A stretch of DNA of 53,046 bases, taken from NCBI GenBank assembly GCA_012964825.1, contig DTTI01000075.1, positions 14,488 through 67,533 of the forward strand, written 5' to 3'. The position numbers were made by a program, and so were the translations under genes. The DNA is from Candidatus Neomarinimicrobiota bacterium (GTDB lineage Bacteria; Fidelibacterota; Marinisomatia; Marinisomatales; S15-B10). Below, piece by piece: positions 39,990-49,932 of the stretch; position 1 is the first letter of the stretch; the number at the start of each line of letters is the position of its first letter. The notes beneath the pieces are model-generated. The model searched no databases, was not told the origin of the DNA, and worked only from the letters and a program-made list of their open reading frames with translations.

Positions 39990-41927
39990 ATGATTAACAA
40001 CAAATTTCCACCTCCTGGTTCTTTTGCCTCAAATGCGCATATTAGTTCCATGGACCAGTACCATGAACTGTATAAACAGTCCATCGATAATCCCGAAGAT
40101 TTTTGGGCGGACAAGGCTGAGAGACTGGACTGGAGCGAAAAATGGAGTAATGTCCGGGCCTTCGATTTTGTGGATGGTAATATCAGCTGGTTTGAGAACG
40201 GTAAGCTGAATGTGAGCCAGAATTGCCTCGACCGGCATGTGGATGGTGGTCACGGCGACCGACCTGCCATCATTTGGGAAGGGAATGATCCCAATGAAGA
40301 CCAAACCTTCACCTATTCAGAACTTCTGTCTGAAGTAAAGAAGTTTGCCAATGTGCTCAAAAATAATGGGATAGAAAAAGGAGACAGGGTTTGCTTTTAT
40401 CTTCAGATGGTGCCTCAGTTGGCCATCGCCATGCTCGCCTGTACCCGGATCGGTGCCGTTCATTCTATTGTGTTTGGTGCTTTTAGTGCAGATTCGCTGA
40501 GAGACCGTATCAACGATTCTGCCTGCAAAATACTTATTACGCAAGATACGGGTGTGCGGGGGATCAAAACGGACATCCCAATGAAAGCTAACGCTGATAA
40601 AGCTGTGGCGCAGACGCCGTCCATTGAGACGGTGCTTGTCGTGAAGCGTACCGGCGCCGATGTCAATTTTGAGAGTGGGCGTGATTTCTGGTGGCATGAA
40701 GAGATGGACAAAGCCGATGCCGAATGCCCGCCTGAGCCCATGGATTCTGAAGATCCTCTCTTTATTCTCTATACCTCCGGCTCAACCGGAAAGCCGAAGG
40801 GGGTTCTTCACACGACAGGGGGATACCTCACATACACGTCCTATACGCATGAACTGATCTTTGATTATCATCCGGAAGATATTTTCTGGTGTACAGCGGA
40901 TATCGGTTGGATCACGGGCCACTCCTACATTGTTTACGGTCCTCTAGCTAATTGCGCCACTACCGTCATGTTTGAAGGGGTTCCCAATTACCCGGATTTT
41001 GGCCGGTTCTGGGACATTGTTAAGAAACATAAGATAAACCTGTTTTATACCGCCCCCACCGCACTCCGGGCACTCATGAAAGAAGGTGACGACCACGTCA
41101 CTTCACGAGACCTGTCATCCCTGCGACTGCTGGGCACGGTAGGTGAACCAATCAAAGAACCAGAGTGGATGTGGTATCACTCCGTGGTGGGCAAGGAAAA
41201 ATGTCCCATTGTGGACACCTGGTGGCAAACGGAGACAGGCGGTATTCTCATAACCCCTCTTCCCGGGGCCACACCAACCAAACCCGGCTCCGCAACGCTG
41301 CCTTTTTTTGGTGTTGAACCGGTTCTTTTAGAAGAAAACGGAAAAGAAATTGAAGGAAATGATGTTTCCGGACTGCTGGCCATTAAAGCTTCCTGGCCTG
41401 GGCAGTTGAGAACGGTTTATGGCGATCGTAAAAGATTCATCGATACCTACTTCAAAATGTATCCCGGTTACTATTTTACCGGTGACGGCGCCCGGCGGGA
41501 TGAGGAAGGCTACTACTGGATTACGGGTAGGGTGGATGACGTCATGAATGTGTCAGGTCATCGCATCGGTACGGCGGAAGTGGAGGGAGCCATAGGAAAA
41601 GCTAACGGAGTTGCCGAAGCTGCTGTGGTGGGATTCCCCCATGATATCAAAGGTCAAGGAATTTACGGTTTTGTTACCCTTATGACAGGTGTGGATGAGA
41701 GTGATGAAATCTATGAAGATATCTTGAAGAGTGTGACAGAGGAAATTGGTCCTCATGCCAAGCCGGACAAGCTCCAGTTTACACCGGCCCTGCCCAAGAC
41801 CCGCTCCGGGAAGATCATGCGGCGAATCTTGAGGAAAATTGCTGAAGGAGATGTTGACAAAATGGGTGATACATCAACCTTGGCCGATCCTTCCGTGGTG
41901 GATGCGCTGGTTGAAGGGCGTAAGTAG
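39990..41927 (+). CDS. acs: Acetyl-CoA synthetase
   Basis: 645 residues, the normal Acs length. The ANL P-loop reads [12 protein letters not shown], the acyl-binding region has WWQTETGG, the hinge [18 protein letters not shown], and the catalytic, regulatory lysine lies in [11 protein letters not shown] near the end. It activates acetate via acetyl-AMP. It lies between moaE and the convergent OsmC-like gene (9 bases between stops). Its own start follows a 73-base gap after moaE in which no strong promoter was recognised. Confidence 0.96.
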
Positions 41928-41936
41928 CGTCAGTGC

Positions 41937-42404
41937 CTACTCTAATTCAGTTTCGAGACTTAAAGTAAAATCGATGGCGTCCCGGAAGGTCATATAAGCA
42001 GGGCATTTTACCGGATGGTGCTTATAGGCACGGTTCACGGCATTCATCTGATCATCTGAACATTTCAAATGATAGGCTACGCGGATTTTTGTGATCCTTA
42101 AAACGCCGTCTACAGCATCAATATCACCTTCCACATCTGACCAAAGTCTGTTTGGGGAACTTTGAACTCCACGCGCTTCCAGCGCGCTACCAAAGGTGCC
42201 CGTTAGTCAACCGGCGGCTCCGGCGATAATATAATCCAAAGTGGCGGGGTGCTCCTCCTTTGGCTCCACTCCGTAGAAATCCTTGATGTTGGTATGAACA
42301 CCAAAAATGGCAGGCTCGTCGAATCCTTCAATGTAAGCCCGGCGAACCAAGTTCTCATCCCGGTAGATCTTTATCTTACTGGTGTGGACATGTTCAGTGG
42401 CCAT
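41937..42404 (-). CDS. OsmC-like selenoprotein with in-frame UGA (Sec66)
   Basis: Reading from ATG 42404 gives 65 codons, a TGA (42207-42209) and 89 further codons in the same frame to 41937, 155 residues in all. Both halves are OsmC-like. The N-terminal half ends in HPATLDYIIAGAAG; the C-terminal half begins LTGTFGSALEARG. In OsmC/YhfA homologues the residue between GAAG and LTGT is the redox-active cysteine, so UGA stands exactly there. The second redox cysteine is intact (HHPVKCPAY). A SECIS-like stem-loop follows. OsmC proteins reduce organic hydroperoxides through a thiol pair; selenocysteine would raise reactivity. The ATG shares a base with the XdhC stop (TAATG), so it belongs to the leftward cox operon. 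A nonsense mutation or sequencing error is the alternative. Confidence 0.78.
42160..42195 (-). promoter_or_regulatory. Candidate bacterial SECIS element
   Basis: On the minus-strand RNA, CGCGC/GCGCG (plus an outer G-U) encloses the loop UGGAA (42177-42181), with GG at loop positions 2-3. An outer stem CUUUG/CAAAG (42191-42195 with 42160-42164) supports it across an internal loop. The apical loop begins 25 bases after the UGA, within the 16-37 base range known for bacterial SECIS elements. Confidence 0.65.
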
Positions 42405-43219
42405 TAGGATGTTTCTTTCTCAGATTCAACCGCGGACACGCTTCTCAAAGGATGCCCCGTGCCGCCGTTGCGATGCATTACCATTTCAGACAGGATACTC
42501 AGGGCGATCTCTTCCGCTGTTTTTGCCTCCAAGTCAAGTCCTGCCGGGGCGTGGAATCGCTCCAGATCTTTATCGGTTATACCGTTTTCCCGGAGATAAT
42601 CAATGATGATGCCCGTTTTTTTCCCACTGGCCACCACCGCTACAAATGGGATGCCCCGCTTAATGGCCTCGCATGATATTCTATCGTCGTCCCGATGGTG
42701 TGTGGCAAGAACAAAGTAATTCACATCAAAATCGATATCGTCCATCTCCAGTGGATCGGTGATAATCTTATCGACATCCGGGTACCGTTCCACTTCTTCT
42801 TCAGGTGTCTGAATTACCACCTTGAAATTGAGGGTGTGCGCTATCTGGCACAGCACCTCCACCGCCCGTCCCATTCCTCGCACCAGCAAGGTGGGCACTT
42901 TTAACTGAGGTTCTACAATTACTGACATATATCCTCCACAAGGGATGCCCATCCCCATTTCATCGCTGTCCAAATCTATGTTAACAGTTTTTGGTTTACC
43001 TTCTGCAATGGCTTCCTGAGCCGTGGCCGCCACGCGATTTTCGATACAGCCGCCGCCGATGTAACCGATAATTCGTCGACCGTTTGCATCGTAGAGCGCT
43101 TTGTCGCCTACTTTCCCTGAGGAAGAACCCTGTACCATGAACACAGTGGCAAGACCGTAAGGGGTGTCAGCCGCTTCCAACTCCCCAATTTTATCAAAAA
43201 GATCCTTATGTCTGGACAT
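42404..43219 (-). CDS. XdhC/CoxI family Moco-enzyme maturation protein
   Basis: 271 residues. XdhC-type signatures: N-terminal ATVFMVQGSSSGKVGDKALY, GYIGGGCIENRV, GIPCGGYMSVIVEP, then a Rossmann-like C-terminal half (LLVRGMGRAVEVLCQIAHTL, VNYFVLATHHRDDD) and FHAPAGLDLEAKTAEEIALSILSEM. Members bind Moco and help sulfurate or insert it into xanthine-oxidase-family enzymes. Overlaps the MocA-like gene by 14 bases and the OsmC-like gene by one. With the XdhC-YHS protein at 50580 this gives two XdhC paralogues flanking the CO dehydrogenase genes, as CoxF and CoxI do elsewhere. Confidence 0.9.
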   Translation of the reverse strand: MSRHKDLFDKIGELEAADTPYGLATVFMVQGSSSGKVGDKALYDANGRRIIGYIGGGCIENRVAATAQEAIAEGKPKTVNIDLDSDEMGMGIPCGGYMSVIVEPQLKVPTLLVRGMGRAVEVLCQIAHTLNFKVVIQTPEEEVERYPDVDKIITDPLEMDDIDFDVNYFVLATHHRDDDRISCEAIKRGIPFVAVVASGKKTGIIIDYLRENGITDKDLERFHAPAGLDLEAKTAEEIALSILSEMVMHRNGGTGHPLRSVSAVESEKETS

Positions 43220-43820
43220 TTAACTCCTCGGAATAATCTTTCAATTTAAGGTAGTCCTCATTTGTGTCACAATCAAGGATCACTTCATTTGAATCGATTG
43301 GAACGGGAACGGCATGGTCGGGATATTTACTTAATACTCTTTTGCAGCCCCTGTCTCCGGTGGAGGACATTATCTCATAAAAATATTTTTGAGGGAACAG
43401 TACAGGGTTTCCCTGCCGGCCGTCATGCTTAGGGTAGATTATGTGCTTTCCCTCGTGAGAAATAAAACTGTTTTTCAATTTTTCCAGTGTTTCAACAGAC
43501 ACAAAGGGCATATCTCCCAGTGCAATGAGGTTACCATCGGTGTTATCTGGAAGAGCCACCAAACCGGAAAAGATAGAGGTCGCCATGCCATCAGCCCAGT
43601 GACTGTTGTGGGTGAATTGAAGCTCCAGCTTATTCAAAGCTGCTTCAACCTTATCTTTTTCAAAACCAGTCACCACTACAACAGGATCAAAACCTGTGGC
43701 CAGAACTGATTCACAGACTCGTTTGACCATAGGGTTACCATCAATGGTCAAAAGCAACTTGTTTGTGTTATCCATGCGGGTAGATTGTCCCGCAGCCATG
43801 ACTGTGGCTGATATTCTCAT
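43206..43820 (-). CDS. MocA-like molybdopterin nucleotidyltransferase
   Basis: 204 residues. The NTP-transferase start MAAGQSTRMDNTNKLLLTIDGNPMV, then ALGDMPFVSVETL and GRQGNPVLF, and a C-terminal VILDCDTNEDYLKL match MocA/MobA-like proteins. For CO dehydrogenase the cofactor is molybdopterin cytosine dinucleotide, so CTP transfer to Mo-molybdopterin is the likely reaction. It overlaps coxE by 4 bases. Confidence 0.88.
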   Translation of the reverse strand: MRISATVMAAGQSTRMDNTNKLLLTIDGNPMVKRVCESVLATGFDPVVVVTGFEKDKVEAALNKLELQFTHNSHWADGMATSIFSGLVALPDNTDGNLIALGDMPFVSVETLEKLKNSFISHEGKHIIYPKHDGRQGNPVLFPQKYFYEIMSSTGDRGCKRVLSKYPDHAVPVPIDSNEVILDCDTNEDYLKLKDYSEELNVQT

Positions 43821-45049
43821 GCGTAGACAGGTACTGTTGATGCGGATCGCCGGCTGTTGAGTGTCGCCAGAACATTCCCCAGGTCCACCAGGCTGTTTAG
43901 ATTATGAATGGGGAGAAAATCATCGGCGTGAGGAAGCAGAGTCTGAACGCCTCGAGTCAGGGGCTGAAAATCGTCATAGCCCAGGTTGGGGTTGAGCCAG
44001 ATGAGTCGGTGACAGCTCCTGTGTAGGCGGTCAATCTCTTTCTCTAGTTTATCAACGTCACCAGTATCCCAACCGTCACTGATGACCAGTACCACCGCAC
44101 CGCTACCGAGGACCCGCCGCGCCCAGAGCAAGTTGAATGTCTCAATTGTTTCACCGATTCGTGTTCCTCCTGACCAATCCTTTATGGAGTTGGCTAAAAT
44201 ATCCATGGTATCCTCCACATCTTTATGGCGGAGAGTGTGGGTGATTCTGTTAAGCCGTGTCCCGAATGTGAAAGCCTCCAGCCTAGGGTTGATGGCGTGG
44301 AGAGTAAAGATAAAATGCATAAGAATTCTCGTATAAGTCTCCATGGAACCGCTGATATCACAAAGAATAATGAGTGGTCTCGGTTTCCATTTTTGCTGGC
44401 GCCAAGCCAACTCAACAAAATCCTGCGTGGGAAAGATGTTATTTCGAATTGTACCTCGAAGGTTAAGTCGGTGTCGTTTTCTTCCCGGTTTCAGTCTGCG
44501 AAGGCGCCGTTCACCAAACTCCCAGCGCCATCTGTTCAAAAACTCTTTCGCTTCTTTCAACTCTTCTTCCGTATAGGCATCAAACCTTTTTTCCCGCAGT
44601 ATTTCCGCAGGGCTGTACATAAAAAGATCAAATGTCTTATTTTCGTGCTCTTGGTCTTCTTTGCCTTCCTCTGTTGGTTGAAATGAATCGAGGCGTCTCT
44701 CTTTCATCTGTTCCGCCTGCTGCTTCATACTTTCCAGTTCAGCCTGAGCTAACCGTGATTCATAGAGTTTCCGAAGGATATCGGAAACATTCTCCAACCT
44801 GTCCGGGTTTCGCCAGTAGAGATCGAAGAGCTGATCAAAAACGGGAATAAACCTGTGGGAAGTGATGAAGGTAGTACGCAAGGCACTCTTAAAATCTTCC
44901 CGGTTGGTGATATCGACGCAGGAGGCAGCCTGTACTCCGTTCATGATTTCACCAGTTCCCAGATCACACCCCGCCTGTCGGACAAACCGGCCGAAACTAG
45001 CGATGGCGTCATGAAGGTGTGATTCAGCAGTTGTTGATGATTCTGTCAT
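43817..45049 (-). CDS. coxE: CoxE-like von Willebrand factor A protein
   Basis: 410 residues. The VWA MIDAS motif DISGS (Asp231, Ser233, Ser235) lies in PLIILCDISGSMETYT; a helical N-terminal part and VLVISDGWDTGD follow the CoxE pattern. With the CoxD ATPase it assists assembly of the Mo-S-Cu site of CO dehydrogenase (known for Oligotropha). It lies 49 bases after coxD on the same strand and overlaps the MocA-like gene as ATGA. Confidence 0.92.
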   Translation of the reverse strand: MTESSTTAESHLHDAIASFGRFVRQAGCDLGTGEIMNGVQAASCVDITNREDFKSALRTTFITSHRFIPVFDQLFDLYWRNPDRLENVSDILRKLYESRLAQAELESMKQQAEQMKERRLDSFQPTEEGKEDQEHENKTFDLFMYSPAEILREKRFDAYTEEELKEAKEFLNRWRWEFGERRLRRLKPGRKRHRLNLRGTIRNNIFPTQDFVELAWRQQKWKPRPLIILCDISGSMETYTRILMHFIFTLHAINPRLEAFTFGTRLNRITHTLRHKDVEDTMDILANSIKDWSGGTRIGETIETFNLLWARRVLGSGAVVLVISDGWDTGDVDKLEKEIDRLHRSCHRLIWLNPNLGYDDFQPLTRGVQTLLPHADDFLPIHNLNSLVDLGNVLATLNSRRSASTVPVYA

Positions 45050-45098: not shown

Positions 45099-46019
45099 TC
45101 AGGCTGAAATCATATCAGCTTCAGCCACAGCTCGCTGGACAAGACCTTGGGTCACTTCACCCTTCATCTTTTCGATATCGTCCTGATATTTGAGAAGTGT
45201 TCCCAGGGTATCTTCCGTTATTTCCGTAGACAGTTCGGTAGTCCCCAATTGCATGAGAGCGTTGGCCCAGTCAATGGTTTCAGCTACACCGGGGAGTTTG
45301 TAGAAGTCTTTTTCACGAACGGCCTGAACAAAGGTTACCACCTGTTTCCCCAACTTTTCGTTTACATCCGGAATCCGCCGCCTGACTATCTCGAATTCCC
45401 TGTTTGCAGAGGGATACCCGATCCAGTGATAGAGACATCTCCGTTTCAGGGCATCGTGAATTTCCCGTGTTCTGTTCGAGGTGATGACCACAAAAGGTCG
45501 CTGCTTGGCGGTAATGGTGCCGATCTCCGGAATGGTAACCTGAAAGTCTGACAAGATCTCCAACAAAAAAGCTTCAAATTCTTCGTCGGCTCGGTCCAGT
45601 TCATCAATGAGAAGAACGGGGGGAACCTTCTTATCATAGTCCACGGCTTGCAAAAGTGGCCTTTTGATAAGGAACTCTGAGCCGAAAATTTCGGCTGTTA
45701 ATTTCTCCTTATCTTTTTCACCGCCTGCTTCCATAAGGCGAATCTGGAGAATCTGCCTGGAGTAATTCCACTCGTAAATGGCATTATGAACGTCAAGGCC
45801 TTCATAGCATTGGAGGCGGATCAGTTCAGTTCCCATCATTTTTGCCATTACTTTACCGACTTCCGTCTTGCCCACACCCGGCTCCCCTTCCAAGAAAATG
45901 GGTTTTCCCATTTTCATCATGAGAAATATGGATGTACTAAGAGATCTGTCAGAAATATAGTTGTGTTTGCTAAGCTTATCATGCACCGCATCAATTGATT
46001 TAGGGATTCTCACCTTCAT
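45099..46019 (-). CDS. coxD: CoxD-like MoxR AAA+ ATPase
   Basis: 306 residues. Walker A GEPGVGKT (45-52), Walker B LLIDELDRAD, sensor TSNRTREIHDALKRRCLYHWIGYP: a MoxR-type AAA+ ATPase. In Oligotropha CoxD drives maturation of the binuclear copper-molybdenum site. It is transcribed away from coxMSL across a 163-base region that holds the cox promoter candidate. Confidence 0.92.
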   Translation of the reverse strand: MKVRIPKSIDAVHDKLSKHNYISDRSLSTSIFLMMKMGKPIFLEGEPGVGKTEVGKVMAKMMGTELIRLQCYEGLDVHNAIYEWNYSRQILQIRLMEAGGEKDKEKLTAEIFGSEFLIKRPLLQAVDYDKKVPPVLLIDELDRADEEFEAFLLEILSDFQVTIPEIGTITAKQRPFVVITSNRTREIHDALKRRCLYHWIGYPSANREFEIVRRRIPDVNEKLGKQVVTFVQAVREKDFYKLPGVAETIDWANALMQLGTTELSTEITEDTLGTLLKYQDDIEKMKGEVTQGLVQRAVAEADMISA

Positions 46020-46182: not shown

Positions 46183-47073
46183 ATGATTCCCGGATCCTTC
46201 GATTACCATAAACCAGAAACTTTGGAAGATGCTGTTGGATTGCTGAATGAACTAGGTGACGACGCCAAGGTTCTTGCAGGTGGTCACAGTCTTATTCCAC
46301 TCATGAAACTTCGGTTGGCAGAGCCGACACATCTTGTGGATATCAATGGCCTTGAAGGTCTTGACTATATCAAGGAGGAGGGTGGTTATCTTAAAATCGG
46401 TGCCATGGTCACTGAAGCTCAGCTGGAAGAGTCGGATTTAATCGCTGAGAAGTATCCCATTCTCAAGGACACTTCGAAAGTGATTGCCGATCCCCTGGTT
46501 AGGAATAAAGCGACTGTTGGAGGCAATATTGCCCATGGAGATCCTGCGAATGACCATCCAGCCACCATGATGGCCATGAATGCAGAAGTTGTGGTAAAAG
46601 GTCCCAGTGCTCCAATGACTGATGGTGTACGGACCGTAGCTATTGATGAATTTTTTGTGGGTCCGCTAATGACTGCCTTAAGTCACAACGAGATTTTAAT
46701 GGAGATACGAATACCAGAACCAGATGGCATGTGCGGTGCAGCTTATTTGAAACTGGAAAGAAAAGTTGGTGATTATGCAATCGCTGGTGTTGCGGTATCA
46801 TTAGTTGTTGACGGCGAAGGGAATTGTTCCAATGCAGGTATTGCCCTTACAAATGTTGGGCCGACACCCGTTCGTGCTACGCAAGCCCAGGAAGCACTGA
46901 TAGGTAAACCACTGGATGAGAATAACATTGCTGAGGCTGCCCAATTGGCTGCTGACGCTGCCCAACCGGTTGGTGATCATCGGGGTTCTGAAGAATTTAA
47001 ACGGGCTATAGTAAAAACCATGACCACAAGAGCAATTGATAAGGCAAAAACAAGAGCCGAAGGAAAGAAATAA
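46183..47073 (+). CDS. coxM: CO dehydrogenase medium (FAD) subunit CoxM
   Basis: 296 residues; GGAG lies eight bases before the ATG. FAD-binding signatures AGGHS (32-36) and [21 protein letters not shown] are present, as in the vanillyl-alcohol-oxidase-type FAD subunits of xanthine oxidase family enzymes. CoxM receives electrons from CoxS and passes them to quinone. The order M-S-L is that of form I CO dehydrogenase operons. Confidence 0.95.
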
Positions 47074-47074
47074 T

Positions 47075-47569
47075 ATGGCAACACGATCAATTACTGTAAC
47101 AATTAACGGAGAGGCCAGAACCGCTGAAGTCGAAGATCGACTACTTTTAGTTCATTTAATTCGAGACAACTGTGGCTTAACTGGCACTCACATTGGATGT
47201 GACACGACCCACTGCGGTGCTTGTACCGTGCTTCTGGATGGAATAGCTGTTAAATCCTGTACGGTATTTTCAGTCCAGGCAGATGGAGCTGAAGTAACAA
47301 CCATTGAAGGAATGGAAGGAGAAGCTCTTCATCCTTTGCAGGAGGGATTCATGGAAGAGCATGGTTTGCAGTGCGGTTTTTGTACACCAGGCATGATCAT
47401 GTCATCCAAGCATCTCCTCGATAAGAATCCAAACCCGACGGAAGATGACATTCGTTGGGGTATATCAGGGAATCTGTGTCGTTGTACCGGTTATCAAAAC
47501 ATTGTAAAGGCGGTACAGTACGCTGCGAAAAAACTTCAAGAAACACCCGCAGAACAAGGAGCAAAGTAA
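47075..47569 (+). CDS. coxS: CO dehydrogenase small (2x[2Fe-2S]) subunit CoxS
   Basis: 164 residues from ATG 47075, one base after the coxM stop. Plant-type [2Fe-2S] cysteines 42, 47, 50 and 62 ([12 protein letters not shown]) and the second cluster cysteines 100, 103, 135 and 137 ([14 protein letters not shown]) are complete. It relays electrons from the molybdenum site of CoxL to FAD in CoxM. Confidence 0.97.
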
Positions 47570-49932
47570 TGGCAAAATGTAAAACGTCACCCGAAGTTGG
47601 AGGAATGGGGCACTCCGTTAAGCGAAAGGAAGATCCAAGATTCATTCGTGGACAGGGTAATTATGTAGATGATGTCGTGCGACCAGGAATGGTTTTTATG
47701 GACATTGTTCGCAGTCCATATGCACATGCAAAAATTAAAAGTATTAACACGGAAAAAGCGCTGGCACACCCCGGTGTTGCTGCTGTGATTACTGGAGAAA
47801 CTCTCAAGGAATACAATCTCCATATGATGCCGACACTTATGTCCGACACCCAGATGGTTTTACCGATAGAAAAGGTATGTTACCAATCCCAGGAAGTAGC
47901 TGCTGTGGTTGCCACGGACCGCTACAGCGCCGCGGACGGAGTGGAACTGGTGGAAGTGGAATACGAACCTCTACCAGTTGTTGTAGACCCTCATAAAGCT
48001 AACGATCCTGATGCACCTATTATACGGGATGATAAGGAAGGGCAGGAAAATAACCATATTTTCCACTGGGAAGCAGGGGATAAGTCAGGAACAGATGAAA
48101 TCTTCAAAAATGCAGACGTTACAGTCAAAAAAGATATTTACCTTCCTCGCATTCATGTTGCCTCCATCGAAACCTGCGGCTGTGTGTCAGAATTTGACAG
48201 CGTTACCGGCCAACTGACAGTTTGGATGACTACACAGGCACCCCATGCTATCCGTACAGTGTTGGCTCTGGTAGCCGGACATGTTGGACTACAGGAAGAT
48301 AAGATCCGCATCATTGCACCGGATATTGGCGGCGGGTTTGGCGGTAAGGTTCCTATTTATCCTGGTTATGTGATCGCTATCGCAGCATCTGTGGTGACAG
48401 GTCTACCTATAAAATGGATTGAAGATCGTCGAGAAAACCTGCAGGCAGATTCTTTTGCCAGAGATTATCATATGACATGTGAGATAGCAGCAGATAAAGA
48501 TGGTACATTAAACGGATTGCGAATTAAGACACTAGCAGATCATGGTTATGCTGATGCAGCGGCGAATCCATCTAAGTTTCCTGCTGGAATGTTCTCGATC
48601 TGTACAGGTTCTTATAATTTTAAGAACGCCTTCGTTGAAGTTGATGGTGTGTACACTAATAAACCGCCAGGGGGAATAGCCTACCGATGCTCTTTTCGTG
48701 TTACAGAAGCTGTGCATGCTATCGAACGTCTGGTGGACCTGGTTGCTGATGAATTAGGGATGGATGCGGCTGAAATCAGAATGAATAATTTCATTCCGAA
48801 AGATGCTTTTCCTTATAAATCACCTATGGGGTGGGAATATGATAGTGGGGATTACCATGCAGCTCTGAAGTTGGCCATGGAAAAGATAGGCTATGATCAG
48901 CTACTCAAAGAACAGGCCGAAAAACGTAAAAAGGGTGAATTGATGGGAATTGGGATCTCCTCTTTTACTGAAGTTGTGGGAGCGGGTCCTTCCAAGGATT
49001 TTGATATTCTTGGGATAAAGATGTTTGATAGTTCCGAAATACGAATTCACCCCACTGGTAAAGTCATGGCCCGATTCGGCACGAAATCCCAAGGTCAGGG
49101 GCATGAAACAACATATGCTCAGATCATCGCAGAAGAATTAGGTATTCCTCATACAGATATTTCTGTTGAAGAAGGGGATACCGATACAGCACCCTATGGT
49201 CTAGGGACTTATGCCAGTCGTTCAACACCTACAGCAGGGGCTGCTGCTGCTGTGGCCTGTAGAAAAATCAAGGATAAGGCCCAGAAGATTGCTGCACACT
49301 TGTTGGAAACTGCTGAAGATGACTTGGAATGGGAAGTTGGTAAATTCTCGGTGAAAGGCGTTCCGGACAAATCGGTTACAATTCAGGATATAGCTTTTGC
49401 AGCTTATACCAATCACCCGCAGGGATTAGAAGCTGGACTGGAGGCAACTCATTATTATGATCCGCCTAACATGACTTATCCCTTTGGCAGTTACATTGCG
49501 GTGGTGGATATTGACTCGGATACTGGTGTAGTAAAGGTGCGTAGGTTTGTGGCGGTTGATGATTGTGGAAACATTATCAATCCCATGATTGTTGATGGTC
49601 AGATCCACGGGGGCCTTACTCAGGGATTGGCACCTGCTCTCTATGAAGAAATCAGCTATGATGATGAAGGCAATATTACTGGGGGCAGTTTCATGGATTA
49701 TCTTGTTCCCACTGCAGTAGAAACACCCCACTGGGAGACACATAAAACGGTAACTCCTTCACCTCATCATCCTCTTGGTGCTAAAGGGGTTGGTGAATCA
49801 GCAACTGTTGGTGCACCGCCTGCTATTGCTAATGCTGTAGTGGATGCCCTGTCGCATCTTGGTGTGAGGCATTTGGATATTCCACTCACGCCAGAGAAGG
49901 TCTGGCAAGCAATTCAGAGCGCTAACGCTTAG
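47569..49932 (+). CDS. coxL: Form I aerobic CO dehydrogenase large subunit CoxL
   Basis: 787 residues from ATG 47569, whose A is the last base of the coxS TAA (a longer frame from 47455 would lie in coxS). The active-site loop AYRCSFR, with Cys374 expected to bind the copper of the Mo-S-Cu cluster, is the form I signature; form II (putative) enzymes have AYRGAGR. GGGFGGK, GQGHETTYAQ and the catalytic Glu743 in GVGESATVGAPP are intact. It oxidises CO with water to CO2. The match with form I makes CO use probable rather than another aldehyde/purine substrate. Confidence 0.96.
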   Translation: MAKCKTSPEVGGMGHSVKRKEDPRFIRGQGNYVDDVVRPGMVFMDIVRSPYAHAKIKSINTEKALAHPGVAAVITGETLKEYNLHMMPTLMSDTQMVLPIEKVCYQSQEVAAVVATDRYSAADGVELVEVEYEPLPVVVDPHKANDPDAPIIRDDKEGQENNHIFHWEAGDKSGTDEIFKNADVTVKKDIYLPRIHVASIETCGCVSEFDSVTGQLTVWMTTQAPHAIRTVLALVAGHVGLQEDKIRIIAPDIGGGFGGKVPIYPGYVIAIAASVVTGLPIKWIEDRRENLQADSFARDYHMTCEIAADKDGTLNGLRIKTLADHGYADAAANPSKFPAGMFSICTGSYNFKNAFVEVDGVYTNKPPGGIAYRCSFRVTEAVHAIERLVDLVADELGMDAAEIRMNNFIPKDAFPYKSPMGWEYDSGDYHAALKLAMEKIGYDQLLKEQAEKRKKGELMGIGISSFTEVVGAGPSKDFDILGIKMFDSSEIRIHPTGKVMARFGTKSQGQGHETTYAQIIAEELGIPHTDISVEEGDTDTAPYGLGTYASRSTPTAGAAAAVACRKIKDKAQKIAAHLLETAEDDLEWEVGKFSVKGVPDKSVTIQDIAFAAYTNHPQGLEAGLEATHYYDPPNMTYPFGSYIAVVDIDSDTGVVKVRRFVAVDDCGNIINPMIVDGQIHGGLTQGLAPALYEEISYDDEGNITGGSFMDYLVPTAVETPHWETHKTVTPSPHHPLGAKGVGESATVGAPPAIANAVVDALSHLGVRHLDIPLTPEKVWQAIQSANA

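Follow-up and report, generated by a model that had tools for sequence, protein, structure and literature searches.

OsmC-like selenoproteins have been known for some time as a family. Three sequences were described from the Sargasso Sea in 2005 (PMC1088965), members with a UxxT motif were reported from the GOS survey in 2008 (PMC2398784), and the family is listed in a 2026 review (PMC13188914), in agreement with the preliminary description of the present locus, which had referred to earlier reports from marine surveys. The published proteins belong to PF02566/COG1765, have selenocysteine (Sec) at the place of the redox cysteine and are encoded with a bacterial SECIS-type hairpin downstream, and the gene reported here resembles them in all of these respects, its Sec and its hairpin being predicted ones. 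YhfA-type OsmC proteins are part of the same OsmC/Ohr superfamily, and we know of no Sec in them. The biochemical activity of YhfA is unknown; in Ohr, the peroxidatic cysteine attacks the hydroperoxide and a resolving cysteine closes a disulfide (PMC5962072).

The window, i.e. the whole stretch of 53,046 nucleotides that was analysed, comes from a Marinimicrobia MAG of 2.2 Mb (97.6% complete), hereafter G000. Among the long TGA-interrupted frames lying in the gene-poor gaps of the window there were four candidates, and the frame described below is the one recognised by similarity. Its main elements are the following.

41937..42404, minus strand: OsmC-like gene, predicted to encode a selenoprotein; 155 codons plus TAG, kept in nine loci
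42207..42209, minus strand: in-frame TGA, predicted selenocysteine 66, at the redox cysteine place of OsmC proteins
42003..42005, minus strand: codon of Cys134 (KCPAY), the second conserved redox residue

As had been noticed at first reading, the frame runs leftward from the ATG at 42404 through a single TGA. There are 65 codons before this TGA (42209-42207, codon 66) and 89 codons between it and the TAG at 41939-41937, which gives a product of 155 residues when the TGA is counted as one residue. The OsmC-like character of both sides was confirmed by the PF02566 (OsmC) domain, which spans the TGA from residue 51 to residue 148 with a score of 42.8 bits (cut-off 27.5). When the genome was searched as a whole, this gene, with one TGA inside, was the sole OsmC match. 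Automatic annotation would normally stop such a gene at the UGA. On the basis of its conservation, of the decoding machinery and of the selection pattern, we hold it very likely that UGA66 is decoded as selenocysteine in one 155-residue protein of the OsmC superfamily, which is the reading (Sec66) that had been put forward for this codon.

To compare related copies, nine loci were taken together, from seven Marinimicrobia genomes of two families and two Acidobacteria (49-97% identity). Relative to the window copy, identities were 97, 90, 81 and 70% within the same family, 66 and 64% for the two genomes of the other family, and 51 and 49% for the Acidobacteria. All nine loci, close and distant and in two phyla, kept TGA at codon 66, as predicted for the relatives, and a cysteine codon (TGC or TGT) was found at this position in none of them. 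In the non-saturated pairs, dN/dS was 0.02-0.05 for the upstream part of the gene and 0.10-0.13 for the part downstream of the TGA. These ratios indicate that both halves of the gene are under strong purifying selection, and the value after the TGA implies that translation, and selection with it, extends over the second half. Since the same codon is present in all nine loci and the downstream dN/dS is this low in close pairs, the TGA is beyond what chance would leave. A search of the plasmid collection returned no relatives of the gene.

These data bear directly on the explanation in which the TGA is a real stop in a pseudogene, or a sequencing or assembly error, and whatever follows it is no longer functional. 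An otherwise ordinary gene that is interrupted by one in-frame stop does usually point to a nonsense mutation, and the genome is a MAG. However, the TGA recurs in separate genomes and always at the redox cysteine position, and its conservation, together with selection on the part that follows, is a pattern for which neither a nonsense mutation nor a miscall can account. We therefore regard this explanation as exceedingly unlikely.

The identity of residue 66 was then considered through its cysteine equivalents. The preliminary description had located the UGA at the redox cysteine and had paired it with the intact cysteine of HHPVKCPAY, and the alignments agreed on both points. Of the 23 OsmC homologues from the same phylum that were aligned, 22 have the redox cysteine at residue 66, and the remaining one was a wrongly picked frame. 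Cys134, the cysteine of that motif, aligned with the second invariant cysteine in all 23. In addition, a single-sequence search of the PDB gave a weak match to the solved OsmC-like structure 2opl, which has a cysteine at the residue 66 position; a PDB search with the nine-sequence profile returned nothing at 0.01. The phylum-wide PF02566 scan missed the G000 copy that had been found by the genome search, and Sec forms were not counted from that scan. U66, C134 and R21/R22 are invariant.

The sequence that follows the Sec is U-L-T-G-T, i.e. UxxG with threonine at +2 and +4, whereas the published OsmC-like selenoproteins are listed as UxxT; the two are set apart here by the listed motif, not by sequences. 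As UxxT describes the few sequences that have been published and is not a defining catalytic feature, we place the gene among the PF02566 selenoproteins at large and not in the UxxT group. It adds no new kind of selenoprotein; what it adds is a clade of selenoproteins, well supported and shared by Marinimicrobia and Acidobacteria, in which the Sec codon is fixed across two phyla.

The genes required for selenocysteine incorporation were looked for in the same genome, and tRNA-Sec, SelA, SelB and SelD were all present, as anticipated. The tRNA-Sec of G000 scored 63.9 bits and has the anticodon TCA, SelA and SelB adjoin each other, and SelD is itself a UGA gene, with an in-frame TGA in GAGUACK (L060, G000:C28:52000-55000). 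Among the eight other genomes that carry the OsmC-like gene, tRNA-Sec was above the cut-off in seven and SelA was found in six. The gaps in the machinery fall in draft assemblies. One of these, G006, had no match to SelA or SelB, and since the two genes are neighbours in G000, a single missing stretch would account for both of its gaps. SelB is common in the phylum (174/244).

A complete Sec system also argues against a recoding in which TGA would stand for some other amino acid, such as tryptophan in code 4, or against general read-through. The frame is open whichever residue the TGA is read as, which is compatible with such a recoding. However, the aligned residue is cysteine, not tryptophan, and TGA terminates translation in the normal way elsewhere in the operon, where coxE ends in an ATGA overlap (43820-43817), so that Sec decoding rather than a changed code is indicated. 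The probability of a recoding is practically negligible.

Just after the UGA, a candidate hairpin was predicted.

42171..42187, minus strand: predicted hairpin of the bacterial SECIS type, with a stem of 7 bp (GCGCGCU/AGCGCGU) and GGA as apical loop

In the window copy its loop lies 26 nt after the UGA and its folding energy is -9.8 kcal/mol. Bacterial SECIS elements have been defined by a loop of 3-9 nt, a stem of 4-16 bp, a G in the first two loop positions, a spacing of 16-37 nt and an MFE of at most -7.5 (PMC13188914), and the window hairpin, with 7 bp and a 3-nt loop beginning with GG, lies within all of these ranges. Furthermore, when four members of the family were compared, synonymous differences were fewer in the ten codons that follow the TGA than in any other ten-codon stretch (3/53, against a mean of 0.36), and one stem pair was changed on both sides in the Acidobacteria, from C-G to U-A. 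Taken together, the evidence for the hairpin is good but not decisive, because covariation over seven sequences was not above that of shuffles (79 of 500), the 48-nt stretch did not exceed shuffles in stability (z -0.11), the hairpin of G008 is weak (a C.A mismatch, -5.8), that of G069 is altered by an insert, and the acidobacterial pair had no synonymous deficit after the TGA.

One of the related loci (L023, G069:C27:28859-29341, minus strand) carries a 45-nt GC-rich palindromic insert, in frame, in the loop of the predicted SECIS hairpin. This insert is absent from the sister genome G070, and a strict pattern search found no further copies of it. It constitutes a natural test of SECIS tolerance.

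The structure of the protein was modelled with AlphaFold2, which gave an OsmC/Ohr chain (pLDDT 85) in which residue 66, entered as cysteine, is placed in a long central helix, residues 53-77. The best Foldseek matches to the model were OhrB and OsmC (E ~1e-6, TM 0.42-0.56), with a high rmsd (10-13), and identity to the PDB chains listed was 11-20%. The protein thus resembles the Ohr/OsmC thiol peroxidases such as XfOhr and E. coli OsmC (PMC5962072) in its modelled fold, in a putative attacking residue on the central helix, in a second conserved cysteine at the resolving place and in invariant arginines. It differs from them in that a predicted Sec replaces the peroxidatic cysteine and in that position -9 is occupied by Asp57, where the aligned cysteine homologues mostly have Glu.

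The model is also relevant to the possibility that the UGA acts mainly as a regulated stop, giving at low selenium a 65-residue product with a role of its own. Selenoprotein UGAs compete with termination, and the start of the OsmC gene overlaps the stop of the xdhC-like gene (TAATG), two points that may be counted in favour of such a product. However, the 65-residue piece would be cut within the central helix, would keep a minor part of the fold and would be left without a redox residue. We find a functional short product very unlikely, and the full-length selenoprotein is retained in what follows.

The following scheme can be proposed, its catalytic part by analogy with Ohr. SelA, SelB, SelD and tRNA-Sec of the genome would decode UGA66, steered by the hairpin that follows it. 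Sec66, on the central helix, would be the attacking residue, of the peroxidatic type; Cys134 would resolve it by forming a selenenylsulfide with Sec66, which a cellular thiol would then reduce. A catalytic cycle of this peroxidase type is somewhat favoured for the Sec66/Cys134 pair. The label 'peroxide-reducing', which the preliminary description had attached to the protein, is best taken as inferred, and we leave the choice of substrate wide, because of the Asp at -9 and because the superfamily includes members with no known activity. An organic hydroperoxide would be the default putative substrate; sulfur or persulfide species linked to the sulfuration of the molybdenum cofactor are a guess.

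The neighbourhood of the gene was examined next to these considerations of function, and comprises the following genes upstream of it.

42404..43219, minus strand: XdhC/CoxI family protein
43206..43820, minus strand: MobA-like NTP transferase
43817..45049, minus strand: CoxE-like VWA protein, with a TGA stop overlapping the next start
45099..46019, minus strand: CoxD-like AAA ATPase
46183..49932, plus strand: coxM, coxS and coxL, aerobic CO dehydrogenase subunits, coxL with AYRCSFR

The OsmC gene closes the minus-strand run coxD-coxE-mobA-like-xdhC, which is divergent from coxM, coxS and coxL; its placement at the end of a CO dehydrogenase accessory operon was thus correctly recognised at the outset. 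The order AAA-CoxE-MobA-XdhC-OsmC was also found, with domains checked, in G008 and G070, and in G005, G006, G007 and G069 the portion of the cassette that was read agrees by sequence resemblance. Judged from these sequences, the tie between OsmC and the cassette is conserved in Marinimicrobia over four genera and two families. In G070, no cox structural genes flank the cassette on the one side covered by the reading. In one acidobacterial locus (L021), the gene is preceded by a multicopper oxidase and a ZIP-type protein and is not beside cox genes, and the upstream gene of the other (L020) is, by resemblance, the same as that of L021. Since the acidobacterial copies lie away from cox genes, the OsmC protein is not bound to these genes in general, and a link with a molybdoenzyme is not a general one.

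The AYRCSFR motif, which we take to be the form I signature, makes the CoxL encoded at 47455-49932 of this Marinimicrobia genome probably part of an aerobic CO dehydrogenase of form I.

The cox maturation cassette distinguishes the Marinimicrobia gene from the published OsmC-like selenoproteins as described. A limited library, searched by titles and abstracts, held nothing relevant that ties OsmC to CO dehydrogenase or XdhC, or Marinimicrobia to selenoproteins, and the conserved place after the AAA / CoxE / MobA-like / XdhC cassette was not found reported in this limited search. The position after coxD-coxE-mobA-like-xdhC suggests co-expression with maturation genes of a molybdoenzyme of the xanthine-oxidase/CO-dehydrogenase type. 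The most likely role would then be removal of peroxide, or sulfur/thiol redox handling, around the molybdoenzyme or its assembly; a part in its maturation or protection is put forward tentatively. It is equally a speculative suggestion that the UxxG proteins, Sec-only in the genomes seen, form a distinct clade of dedicated redox partners which help to assemble or protect molybdoenzymes of the CO dehydrogenase type, for instance by taking part in cofactor sulfuration or by removing peroxide. If this were true, selenoprotein synthesis would be linked to trace-gas oxidation. A connection between a Sec enzyme and the maturation genes of molybdenum hydroxylases is thus suggested by the arrangement in a form that can be tested.

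On its other side, the OsmC gene faces an acetyl-CoA synthetase gene (39990-41927) that converges on it, with 9 nt between the two stops. This acetyl-CoA synthetase/OsmC pairing recurs in relatives, including G070, which belongs to another family.
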